Shown: piece by piece, positions 1-36,694 of the stretch
Layout: every line of letters begins with the position of its first letter
Position numbering within the stretch: the first letter of the stretch is position 1
NCBI GenBank assembly: GCA_009861545.1
Contig: VXME01000077.1
Coordinates: 63,245-102,086 of the forward strand
DNA: 38,842 bases
Origin: Acidobacteriota bacterium
Lineage (GTDB): Bacteria > Acidobacteriota > Vicinamibacteria > Vicinamibacterales > UBA8438
Direction: 5' to 3'
Position numbers and translations under genes: made by a program
The notes under the pieces: model-generated
What the model saw: only the letters and a program-made list of their open reading frames with translations
Told to the model about the DNA's origin: nothing
Database searches by the model: none

Positions 1-44
1 GTGATTTAGGGGTTGTCCGCCCGGCCGCCAGACTGCACAATAGC

Positions 45-59
45 GCTGGGAGTCTGCGC
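45..59 (+). repeat. Partial copy of the dispersed leader repeat
   Basis: The 15 bases GCTGGGAGTCTGCGC also occur at 2332-2346 and 23199-23213, where they open a longer structured repeat. Only this opening part is recognisable here, and the hairpin arm that should follow is not. It lies 54 bp before the first gene, in the same orientation as the better copies relative to their downstream genes. It may be a decayed copy. Confidence 0.5.
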
Positions 60-2331: not shown

Positions 2332-2417
2332 GCTGGGAGTCTGCGCCGTAGAACGGTGCAGATTCCTGGTCAGGCCCGATCGGGTGGCAAGCGGAGCCAC
2401 AAGCGACGATTGTCGGG
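2332..2417 (+). repeat. Dispersed structured repeat, copy A, upstream of the ankyrin gene
   Basis: The copy begins with an imperfect hairpin at 2335-2367 (15-base arms GGGAGTCTGCGCCGT and ACGGTGCAGATTCCT, loop AGA). A core ending CGACGATTGTCGGG at 2417 follows. The core at 2358-2417 aligns without gaps, at roughly 80% identity, to the reverse complement of 36550-36609, and with an insertion to 23225-23308. It lies 47 bp before the ankyrin gene and points towards it. It could be a REP-type element or a structured leader. Confidence 0.7.
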
Positions 2418-2463
2418 TCGGGGCGTCGATACGGGTAGGCGCCGCGAACGGCGTCGAGAGGTG

Positions 2464-3983: not shown

Positions 3984-6431
3984 ATGATGGCGAGGGCAAC
4001 CGGGCTGGCCACGGCCTTCGTGACGGGACTCGCGCTCGTCCTGTGTGTCTTCGCCACGCCCGCGGCGGCCCAGGCGCCCCGCGCTGCGGCCTCGCCCGCG
4101 CAGCCGGCCGTGCAGGCGCACGGGGCGCCGTCGGCACCCGACGCCGCGACCTGGCGAGCCGTGCTCGACCGCTACTGCGTCACCTGCCACAACCAGCGTC
4201 TGCTGACGGGTAACCTCGCCCTCGACGGCGTCGACGTTGCGCACGTCGGTGCGGATGCGGCGGTCTGGGAGAAGGTTCTCCAGAAGCTGCGCACGCAGGC
4301 CATGCCGCCCCCGCGCCGGCCGCGGCCCGACGCCGAGACCTACGGCGCGTTCGCGATGTGGCTGGAGTCCGCCCTGGATGGAGCTGCCGCCGACCGGCCG
4401 AATCCCGGCCGGCCCACCATCCATCGCCTCAACCGGCTGGAGTACACGAACGCCATTCGGGACCTGCTCGATCTGGAGATCGACACGGCGACGATGCTGC
4501 CGGCCGACGACCTGGCCTACGGCTTCGACAACAACGCCGACATCCTGACCGTGGCGCCGGGGCTGCTGGAGCGCTACATGTCGGCGGCGCGCAGGATCGC
4601 GCGGCTGGCGGTGGGCGATCCGACCATCGAGGCCGACGCGGTGCGCTACCCGCTGTCGACCCTGCTGGTGCAGGACGATCGCATGAGCGAGGATCTGCCG
4701 TTCGGCTCGCGCGGCGGCGCGGCGGTCCGGCACCACTTCCCGCTCGACGGCGAGTACCTCGTCCGCATCGGTCTGCAGGGCGGCGGCCGGCGCGAGCCGC
4801 AGGAGATCGATGTGCGGGTGGACGGCGCCCGGCGCGCACTGCTGCGGGTCGGCAGTTGGCCGGAGGGTGCGGATCCCGGTGCGGCGCGCGTGGTGGAGCC
4901 CGGCGAGCCTCTACAGGTCCGTTTCCCGGCCCGCGCCGGCACGCATGTGGTGAGCGTGTCGTTCACGAAGCGGACGGCGGTGACCGAGGGGATGGCGCCG
5001 AGCCGGTTGCCGATCTGGACGTTCTCGACCGGCCGCGGATACGTCCAGCGGATGGCGCTCGAGAGCGTGGAGATCGAGGGTCCCTTCAGCCCCGACACGC
5101 TCGGCCGCGGCACCGGCGGCGACGGCGAGGCGGCCAGCCGGCGGCGCATCTTCGTCTGCCGGCCCGCGACGGCCGAGGAGGAAGGGCCGTGCGCCGACGA
5201 GATCCTGGGGACGCTGGCGCGGCGGGCGTTCCGCCGGCCGGTCGACGAGATCGATCTCGAGGTGCTGCGCGGCTTCTATGCTGAGGGCCGCGACGAGGGC
5301 AACTTCGACGCCGGCATCCAGCGGGCGCTCGAGAGCATGCTGGTCGATCCCGAATTCCTGTTCCGCATCGAGCGCGACCCGGCGGGGATCGACCCTGTCA
5401 CACCCTACCGCCTGACAGACGTCGAGCTGGCGTCGCGGCTGTCGTTCTTCCTCTGGAGCAGCATCCCCGACGACGAGCTCCTGGATGCCGCGGAGACGGG
5501 AACCCTCGGGGATCCGGATGTGCTCGAGCGGCAGGTGCGGCGGATGCTCGCCGACGAGAAGGCGGGCGTGCTGGTGTCGAGCTTCGCCGCGCAGTGGCTG
5601 CATCTGCGCCGCATGCGCACGGTGTCCCCGGACGTGAACGCCTTTCCGGGGTTCGACGACAACCTGCGGGACGCGCTGGTGCGCGAGACGGAGCTGTTCG
5701 TCGAGAGCCAGATGCGGGACGACCGGAGTGTGGTGGATCTGCTGGACGCCGACTACACCTTCGTCAACGAGCGTCTGGCGCGGCATTACGGGATCCCGAA
5801 CGTCTACGGATCGCGCTTCCGGCGCATCGACCTGCCGGGTGAGGAGCGGCGCGGCCTGCTCGGCCACGGCAGCGTCCTGACGGTGACGTCGCTGGCGACG
5901 CGGACCTCGCCGGTCGTGCGGGGCAAGTGGGTGCTGGAGAACATCCTCGGCACGCCGCCGCCCCCGCCGCCGCCCGACGTGCCGGACCTGCCTGAGCGGG
6001 CCGACGACGGTACGATCACGTCCCTGCGAGCGCGGCTCGAGGCGCACCGCGCGAACCCGGTGTGCTCGAACTGCCACGCCCGGATGGACCCGCTCGGCTT
6101 CGCCCTCGAGAATTTCGACGCGGTCGGCAAGTGGCGCGACAGCGGCGTCGCCGGCGCCCCGATCGACCCCTCCGGCACGCTCCCCGACGGAACCGCCTTC
6201 GACGGTTTTCCGGGCTTGCGGGACATCCTGCTGGAGCGGCGCGAGGAGTTCGTCACCACCGTCACCGAGAAGCTGATGACCTACGCGCTCGGCCGCGGGG
6301 TGGAGCATTACGACCGGCCGGCCATCCGCGCGATAGTGCGCGAGGCCGCAACGAACGACTACCGCTGGTCGTCGCTGATTCTCGGCGTCGCCCGGAGCCT
6401 CCCGTTCCAGATGAGGAGATCGGACTCATGA
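3984..6431 (+). CDS. DUF1592-family secreted cytochrome c-like protein (first paralog)
   Basis: An 815-residue protein with a cleavable signal peptide (about residues 1-30, ending PAAAQ). A c-type haem motif CVTCH (65-69) with MPPP at 107-110 as a possible axial Met is followed by the usual multi-domain order of this family. DUF1587 carries HRLNRLEYTNAIRDLL, then come the DUF1595/1592 regions (LASRLSFFLWSSIPDDELL), the DUF1588 signature RTSPVVRGKWVLENILG and a C-terminal DUF1585 region. A second CSNCH lies at 694-698. The biochemical role of the family is not established; two haem motifs point to electron transfer. Starts at 3984 and 3987 are both possible, with GGGAG at 3976-3980. The stop overlaps the DUF1552 start by four bases (ATGA), indicating translational coupling. 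Confidence 0.92.
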   Translation: MMARATGLATAFVTGLALVLCVFATPAAAQAPRAAASPAQPAVQAHGAPSAPDAATWRAVLDRYCVTCHNQRLLTGNLALDGVDVAHVGADAAVWEKVLQKLRTQAMPPPRRPRPDAETYGAFAMWLESALDGAAADRPNPGRPTIHRLNRLEYTNAIRDLLDLEIDTATMLPADDLAYGFDNNADILTVAPGLLERYMSAARRIARLAVGDPTIEADAVRYPLSTLLVQDDRMSEDLPFGSRGGAAVRHHFPLDGEYLVRIGLQGGGRREPQEIDVRVDGARRALLRVGSWPEGADPGAARVVEPGEPLQVRFPARAGTHVVSVSFTKRTAVTEGMAPSRLPIWTFSTGRGYVQRMALESVEIEGPFSPDTLGRGTGGDGEAASRRRIFVCRPATAEEEGPCADEILGTLARRAFRRPVDEIDLEVLRGFYAEGRDEGNFDAGIQRALESMLVDPEFLFRIERDPAGIDPVTPYRLTDVELASRLSFFLWSSIPDDELLDAAETGTLGDPDVLERQVRRMLADEKAGVLVSSFAAQWLHLRRMRTVSPDVNAFPGFDDNLRDALVRETELFVESQMRDDRSVVDLLDADYTFVNERLARHYGIPNVYGSRFRRIDLPGEERRGLLGHGSVLTVTSLATRTSPVVRGKWVLENILGTPPPPPPPDVPDLPERADDGTITSLRARLEAHRANPVCSNCHARMDPLGFALENFDAVGKWRDSGVAGAPIDPSGTLPDGTAFDGFPGLRDILLERREEFVTTVTEKLMTYALGRGVEHYDRPAIRAIVREAATNDYRWSSLILGVARSLPFQMRRSDS

Positions 6432-23154: not shown

Positions 23155-23308
23155 GGCCGCAGCGCGACCCTGTGGTCGCGTTCGGCGACGGTTTCCGGGC
23201 TGGGAGTCTGCGCCGTGGAACGGCGTAGACTTCCAGTCAGGCCCGGTTGGGCGGCAATCGGAGGCCGCAGCGCGACGGCAGCGGTCGCGTTCGGCGACGA
23301 TTGTCGGG
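23155..23308 (+). repeat. Dispersed structured repeat, copy B, with a tandem partial unit
   Basis: The complete unit spans 23199-23308. It has a near-perfect hairpin at 23202-23234 (15-base arms, loop GGA, 13 of 15 positions matched), the core with CAGGCCCGGTTGGGCGGCAA, and the end GACGATTGTCGGG. An internal insertion of about 25 bases distinguishes it from copies A and C. The tail of a preceding unit is present at 23155-23200, giving a period of 108 bp (GGCCGCAGCGCGAC at 23155 and 23263). It lies between divergent genes and points towards the carboxylesterase, 97 bp from its start. Confidence 0.75.
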
Positions 23309-23404
23309 CTAGGATCGGACAAGCGCACCTTATCAGAGAGACGGCGCAAACGAGACGCGGGGGCGACGCGCGAGCGCGTGCCGCGACGACAGCGGAGACC
23401 ACAG

Positions 23405-31005: not shown

Positions 31006-31314
31006 CTACTCCCGCGTCGCGTCCAGGCTGACCACCGGTTCGTCGCCGACCACCTCCGCGCTGTGGAGCGCGCCGCGCGGTACGGCGAGGCAGTCGCCCG
31101 CTTCGAGCACAACGTCGACCTCGCCCATCGTCATCCGGAACCGGCCGGAGACGACGGCGTCGATCTTGTCGATGCCGTGGGTGTGCGGCGGGAAGCGCGT
31201 GCCGGGCGGATAGACGTAGCGCGACACGGCGTAGCCGCGCGCCTCCAGCTTGCGCCGAAGGGCCTGCTCGGAGAGCGGCCCCTCGGCGGCGGCGTCCCAG
31301 TGCTCGACGCTCAC
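31006..31314 (-). CDS. Small cupin-fold protein
   Basis: A 102-residue single-domain cupin. Motif 1 is FPPHTHGIDKIDAVVSG, with HxH present but the usual Glu not obvious. Motif 2 is GDCLAVPRGALHSAEV, with P-x-G-x-x-H. The GTG start at 31314 overlaps the deacetylase stop by four bases (GTGA), so translation is coupled. Cupins of this size bind a metal and small ligands and may act as isomerases or dioxygenases; the substrate is unknown. Its 3' 123 bp are duplicated at 28952. Confidence 0.85.
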   Translation of the reverse strand: MSVEHWDAAAEGPLSEQALRRKLEARGYAVSRYVYPPGTRFPPHTHGIDKIDAVVSGRFRMTMGEVDVVLEAGDCLAVPRGALHSAEVVGDEPVVSLDATRE

Positions 31315-36450: not shown

Positions 36451-36463
36451 CAACGCATTCTAG

Positions 36464-36609
36464 CCCGACAATCGTCGCCACCGGCTCCTCTTGCCGCCCA
36501 ACCGGGCCTGTCCAGGCGTCTGCACCGCTTCTGCGGCCCAGAAGCCTGGCCCGACAATCGTCGCCACCGGCTCCTCTTGCCGCCCAACCGGGCCTGCCCA
36601 GGCGTCTGC
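36464..36609 (-). repeat. Dispersed structured repeat, copy C: tandem pair, period 86 bp
   Basis: Bases 36464-36523 and 36550-36609 match at 59 of 60 positions. Between them lies a hairpin at 36512-36549 with stems CCAGGC/GCCTGG, TCTG/CAGA and CCGC/GCGG and loop TTCT. A second hairpin at 36602-36620 sits at the equivalent place of the second unit. Read on the minus strand the order is hairpin then core ending CGACGATTGTCGGG, as in copies A and B. It ends 14 bases before the secreted unknown gene at 36450, in the same orientation. Confidence 0.85.
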
Positions 36610-36694
36610 GGCGCGGACGCGAGGCGCCGAAGTTACAGAGAATTCACGTGAAGATGCTTGGGGCCATGTAACTTTGGGTTAAGATGGTTAGTTG

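Follow-up and report, generated by a model that had tools for sequence, protein, structure and literature searches.

The window, that is, the whole 38,842-nucleotide stretch of DNA analyzed here, carries several copies of a short repeated element composed of a first hairpin (P1), a linker, and a second hairpin (P3). A covariance model, built from an alignment in which copy A and one of the copy C units were rows, matched one full unit at 2332..2421 on the plus strand (copy A; 87.8 bits) and one full unit at 23199..23312 on the plus strand (copy B; 89.2 bits). On the minus strand, copy C was resolved into a downstream full unit at 36460..36550 (59.8 bits) and an upstream unit with a shortened P1 at 36546..36625 (59.5 bits). 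The two units stand head to tail, the 3′ CCAG of the upstream unit being the 5′ foot of the next. The model thus agrees with the preliminary description of this DNA, in which A, B, and C had been placed here and C read as two minus-strand units. The foot of copy A is CTGG (2333-2336), and the TAG stop codon of the upstream gene (2307-2309) lies 23 bp before it. Copy B has the feet CTGG (5′) and CTAG (3′) and a 25-nt additional hairpin within the P3 loop; this extra hairpin (23260-23290) represents a long form of the element, and approximately eight other copies in the host genome (G000) have one. The partial tandem unit previously ascribed to copy B does exist (about 23155-23198) but is what remains of the 3′ part of a different copy that is older (23155..23198, plus strand), and the related genome G002 has this remnant without copy B.

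Two further sites in the window are related to the element. At about 43..59 on the plus strand, direct inspection revealed a decayed 5′ arm of P1 only (CTGGGAGTCTGCGCGG), which had no covariance-model match at E ≤ 1 in the window search; this fragment D, formerly counted as a fourth copy, would at best be a piece of a decayed element. The GTAG at 31006..31009 on the minus strand is an empty target, as determined by alignment with the G002 orthologue, which has a complete element there. Its TAG is the stop codon (31006-31008) of the minus-strand gene ending at 31006.

A unit is approximately 90 bp long (about 86 bp and a foot of 4 bp) and runs from CTAG through an 18-bp hairpin P1, the linker, and hairpin P3 with its tandem G-A internal loop to GGG-CTAG. 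The consensus reads G-CTAG-GAGTCTGCGCCG-TAGAA-CGGCGTAGACTTC-TAG-TCAGGCCCGGTTGGGC in the first half and, after TCAGGCCCGGTTGGGC, GGCAATCG-GA-GCC-GCA-GGC-GA-CGATTGTC-GGG-CTAG in the second half. P1 comprises 16-18 bp with CTAG as its foot, and P3 comprises 8 + 3 bp on either side of a conserved tandem GA/GA internal loop; in the longer form, as in copy B, an additional GCGCGACCGCAGCGGTCGCGTTC hairpin lies inside P3. Across 60 distinct copies, 91.6% of the cells were paired. Changes on both sides of a pair were observed at 13 pairs and in 48 cells, compared with 5.8 and 10.5 in shuffles, and none of 500 shuffles reached either value; because the sequences are related, the shuffles alone do not amount to a probability. 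Slid controls were also far below the observed counts. Both P1 and P3 covary, and most of the weight came from the P3 variants GGC/GTC, GCC/GGC, GGG/CCC, and ACC/GGT across genera. The hairpin arms are therefore compensated, as had been proposed, but the stem of copy C is not entirely replaced: only its outer 6 bp were changed, to another perfect pairing, and the rest was mostly kept. The folding energy was -55.4 kcal/mol (z -7.6) for the sense strand versus -38.1 kcal/mol (z -3.8) for the antisense strand, and the non-Watson-Crick cells included 131 G-U versus 36 A-C. These results demonstrate that the folds of P1 and P3 are maintained, with a preference for the sense strand. No Rfam family matched the window at the gathering score, a relaxed threshold gave a chance-level match only, and visual inspection of the consensus revealed no integron attC boxes (RYYYAAC/GTTRRRY).

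The genome-wide covariance-model search that the preliminary description had suggested yielded 81 matches at E ≤ 0.01 in the host genome (6.35 Mb) and 152 or more in the near-complete genome G006, from another genus within the same family; the G006 figure is a lower bound, as 150 candidates were scored. These are copy numbers of the REP-like kind (>50-100 dispersed hairpins outside genes). By sequence alone, BLAST with the consensus recovered 43 pieces in the host genome, where the exact 14-base core CGACGATTGTCGGG occurred 26 times versus 0 for the reversed pattern. The element-rich genera were g1, g4, g9, and some of g6, and the element was not found in the other searched genera of the same family and order. 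A pattern scan covered about 85,000 species genomes, and the matches listed came almost all from Vicinamibacteria, Vicinamibacterales, or Acidobacteria MAGs, with one contig among them binned as a gammaproteobacterium. The distribution of the element is limited to a single family of the Vicinamibacterales and, within it, to some genera. In the host genome, C40:67210 and C42:72343 hold a divergent subfamily whose P1 is longer (CGCAGAACGCAACGGAGTGCG...) and whose linker is GGAGCGGGGGGGATGGGCCG; it also forms the third unit of an array in G003 (L111). At C99:17155 of the host genome (L017), the same 3′ end, CGACGATTGTCGGGCTA, comes after a different hairpin (CTACGGATCTGCC...GGCAGATCCGTG), possibly marking a distant sister family.

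Comparison of orthologous loci identified three sites without the element, at which one unit plus four bases had been inserted at CTAG-like targets. First, the window reads CGGGA-GTAG-CGGG at its empty target, where filled G002 reads CGGGG-CTAG-unit-CCAG-CGGG. Second, G002 lacks copy B, and its junction reads GCTAGGATACGGAC (CTAG); since the older upstream remnant is common to the window and G002, copy B was inserted at the terminal CTAG of the older copy. Third, a host-genome copy on contig C5 (L001) is missing from G002, and the gap there is exactly four bases, CTAA. In G003, the copy B site holds three consecutive units of three subfamilies, which, together with the position of copy B at an older foot, indicates that arrays lengthen through successive insertions at CTAG feet. 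The element is thus dispersed and mobile, inserting at CTAG-like tetranucleotides and leaving a CTAG-type foot on both sides; each insertion adds new CTAG feet, so that head-to-tail arrays grow even from different subfamilies. The CTAG-type feet on both sides and the four-base empty sites may reflect the target and 4-bp duplication of an insertion sequence (IS) of the IS1182 family, but the left and right feet are often unlike in young copies, and strict target duplication was seen only where the target was CTAG-like. Other empty-site candidates were mostly matches between adjacent array units and were discarded, and a G002 element site near window position 3990 was too rearranged for its ends to be fixed. 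The site orthologous to copy A in G002 holds unrelated sequence. In the host genome, a tail on the minus strand of C67 (130957-130991) starts exactly at the inner CTAG and lacks P1, which was either excised or lost in a deletion spanning the two CTAG feet.

To describe the placement of the element, 172 distinct full-length copies were compared with genes predicted by a caller written for the host genome. The underlying genomes are MAG assemblies, and the context statistics derive from about 1.19 Mb of G000, 0.4 Mb of G006, and about 0.33 Mb of G002, together with loci around matches. In 60 of the 172 copies, the upstream gene on the same strand had its stop codon at the 5′ foot: in 39 of these it was the TAG of CTAG itself, and in 16 it was a spare TAG that the P1 loop provides in frame. 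In the latter copies CTAG had become CCAG or CTGG, and the reading frame runs C-CAG-GAG-TCT-GCG-CCG-TAG. Another 20 of the 172 had the stop codon of a convergent gene at the 3′ foot CTAG. Altogether, a stop codon fell exactly at an element foot in 77/172 copies and in 25/37 young copies, and only 7/172 lay within genes. These genomes are GC-rich, and the tetranucleotide CTAG is very rare in them (in the host, 200 occurrences in 1.19 Mb versus 3560 of CATG); its depletion in the host genome is more than 10-fold relative to CATG, CAAG, or CTTG. Outside the elements, native CTAG sites were divided into 65 coding, 55 stop, and 60 intergenic sites, so that about a third were at stop codons, and young elements into 3 coding, 25 stop, and 9 intergenic. 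CTAG targeting combined with the loss of in-gene insertions therefore explains the stop-codon placement to a large extent, with some excess at stops. The element is mobile DNA that inserts at rare CTAG sites, very often at the TAG stop codon ending a gene.

The element is also strongly oriented. Between co-directional genes, 80 copies had the sense and 14 the antisense orientation (p about 2e-12, with copies treated as independent), and the ratio was 18:3 in young and 62:11 in old copies. The polarity relative to the chromosome strand in G006 was weak (p about 0.035). The direction of transcription is thus a better guide to orientation than the replication arm is, and this speaks against insertion on the lagging strand. 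An orientation with transcription, as described in the preliminary description, is borne out. The distances claimed there (14-97 bp ahead of a gene) agree roughly with the gaps to the downstream start given by the gene calls in the window (48 bp for A, 92 bp for B, and about 9 bp for C), but among the 172 copies a same-strand downstream gene followed only 108 of the 158 for which a downstream gene was called (about two thirds), and the starts were a median of 96 bp away with a broad spread.

These distributions bear on whether the element is a cis-acting RNA regulator in gene leaders, the interpretation first put forward. The covarying structure, the sense orientation, and the same-strand gene downstream of about two thirds of the copies would suit a leader, but the copies are anchored to the stop codons of upstream genes at the 3′ ends of their neighbors, orthologous sites exist in filled and empty states, arrays mix subfamilies, and 31/172 copies lie between convergent genes. 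Furthermore, downstream function is not conserved and no Rfam match was obtained. The proposed association with secreted proteins was marginal and was given no weight: a crude predictor placed signal peptides in 47% of downstream genes, slightly more than the 36% of all genes (p = 0.03). A regulatory role in leaders is accordingly very unlikely.

The data could instead implicate the transcript of the upstream gene. According to this explanation, the element would be a host-beneficial 3′-UTR element, acting in transcript-end protection or in a terminator-like manner, spread by transposition and kept by RNA selection. The sense-strand fold, the G-U polarity, and the 80:14 sense bias are all consistent with it. 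On the other hand, no T run follows P3, the presence of the element varies between closely related genomes, the bias already exists in young copies, and remnants and decay are common; we regard a benefit to the host as possible but doubtful.

The mobile palindrome that had been named as the main alternative, of the REP/REPIN type, proved essentially right as to mobility. REP sequences are likewise short, hairpin-forming, high-copy, and intergenic, mostly 3′ of genes, according to two reports on the REP type (PMC2817692, PMC3116915). The element described here differs in its two unlike hairpins, its link to CTAG and stop codons, and its lack of RAYT apart from a Y1 fragment in G003; in contrast to REPINs and BIMEs, there is no inverted pairing, and the units stand head to tail and share CTAG. 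Similarly, unlike hairpins near both ends and a tetranucleotide target beside the left hairpin recall IS200/IS605 elements, but the element-rich genomes lack a Y1 transposase and the replication-arm polarity is slight. Mobilization on single-stranded DNA by a RAYT (Y1 HUH) transposase, or as a palindrome-ended element of the IS200/IS605 type, would account for the high copy number, the hairpin beside a conserved tetranucleotide, the strand-specific fold, and the location 3′ of genes. However, Y1_Tnp (PF01797) had no match in G000, G001, G002, G006, G011, or G013, all of which are element-rich; G003 has a single Y1 fragment only, and Y1 is commoner in element-free relatives. The strand polarity in G006 is weak rather than near-total as lagging-strand insertion predicts, and the arrays run head to tail instead of alternating. 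RAYT mobilization is largely refuted by the absence of Y1, one fragment aside, from the element-rich genomes searched, and this group of explanations is highly improbable. Neither the RAYT partner nor the REPIN pairing that had been expected of a mobile palindrome was thus found in the host genome.

A candidate mobilizer of another kind was identified in G006: an insertion sequence of 1582 bp that encodes an intact transposase of the IS1182 family (NF033551, 360.6 bits, with the cut-off at 270; Pfam DDE_Tnp_1 over cut-off). The gene is present there in five full-length copies. Many 110-111-bp MITEs in the same genome have the same ends as this IS, CTAG-GAGTCTGCGCCG[C/T]AG (terminal inverted repeat CTAG-GAGTCTGCGCCG[C/T]AGAA) or close variants. 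Two IS copies are flanked by CGAG on both sides, a true 4-bp duplication, and others by CTAG. On G006 contig C1 (L113-L132, L133, L147, L155, L159, L162), several IS and MITE copies adjoin and share one CTAG. In the host genome, IS fragments occur at contig ends, and contig C7 starts with an IS right end sharing its CTAG with an element; IS remnants were found in G000, G001, and G015. The left end of the repeat is identical to the IS terminal repeat at 20 of 21 bases, and its first 20 bases are accordingly an IS1182 end. The P1 hairpin holds both IS terminal-repeat arms back to back.

The likeness to the IS1182 IS and MITEs thus comprises a nearly identical 5′ 20 nt, 4-bp CTAG-type feet, and the co-occurrence of IS and repeat in G006. 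The repeat differs in its strand-specific structure, in the back-to-back arms of its hairpin, and in its right end, which reads inward CTAG-CCCGACAATCGTCG, unlike the IS1182 terminal repeat; an inverted copy of the terminal repeat was not found there, and comparison of the IS interior with the repeat tail by eye gave no convincing similarity. Ordinary two-ended transposition is therefore unexplained. MITEPsy1 of Pseudomonas syringae, by comparison, has terminal repeats of the ordinary kind, 18 nt long and originating from ISPsy2, and the available part of its description reports neither stop-codon placement nor structured RNA. Intact IS1182 genes with the shared end were found only in G006, with none in G002 despite many young copies. 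MAGs often lose IS copies. From the shared terminal sequence and the CTAG/CGAG duplications, the likeliest mobilizer would be an IS1182-family element, and we only infer this role because the right end of the repeat lacks the IS terminal repeat. Double-stranded cut-and-paste would predict neither the sense-strand structure nor the orientation, and the G-U preference of the sense strand is unexpected for a purely double-stranded process. The sense bias, no weaker in young than in old copies, likewise counts against this mobilizer. IS1272, a relative of IS1182, has been reported to replace stem-loops in a structure-dependent manner without target duplication (PMC5678879), and by analogy a hairpin-recognizing version of the IS1182 enzyme family is plausible.

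We also considered spread via an RNA or single-stranded intermediate, SINE-like or structure-recognizing, for which the IS1182 similarity would be a borrowed end. Sense-strand structural selection in both hairpins, an orientation tied to transcription rather than the replication arm, and a right end that does not match the terminal repeat of IS1182 all favor this route. It is nevertheless quite unlikely, as 20 of the 80 stop-codon copies are antisense, no enzyme was found for it, and the shared end and CTAG target fit a DDE transposase. A bolder reading is that the element seeks stop codons, with hairpins selected as folded sense RNA or single-stranded DNA, insertion coupled to the direction of transcription, and the loop stop codon protecting the host gene. 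We consider this unlikely as well; if true, such a transcription-coupled route to stop codons would be a mobilization undescribed for bacterial short repeats. A search of the open-licence literature for stop-codon-targeting insertion sequences returned nothing matching.

Overall, the best explanation is that the repeat is probably a mobile element of the REP or MITE kind, non-autonomous and about 86 bp long, with a 4-bp foot. Under this explanation, the element would be mobilized by a DDE transposase of the IS1182 family, the 5′ arm of P1 corresponding to its terminal inverted repeat. Because CTAG is very rare, about a third of native sites are at TAG stop codons, and in-gene copies are rare, copies build up exactly at gene ends. 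An inserted sense copy would then provide a stable 3′-UTR structure for the upstream gene, and the spare in-frame TAG in the P1 loop would make insertion nearly harmless, so that sense copies may be favored over antisense ones.

Among the new facts, three are the most telling: the copies are anchored exactly to stop codons, empty sites exist, and the structure is specific to one strand. Short bacterial repeats are usually explained by RAYT transposases, and here a large short-repeat family exists without RAYT. By targeting CTAG, the element lands where harm is least, and the stop codon that it strikes is restored. It provides a clean system in which to study how a parasite reaches safe harbors when it has no dedicated targeting protein, and a testbed for the ability of IS1182-type transposases, which are already suspected to act on hairpins, to move substrates that are one-ended or folded.
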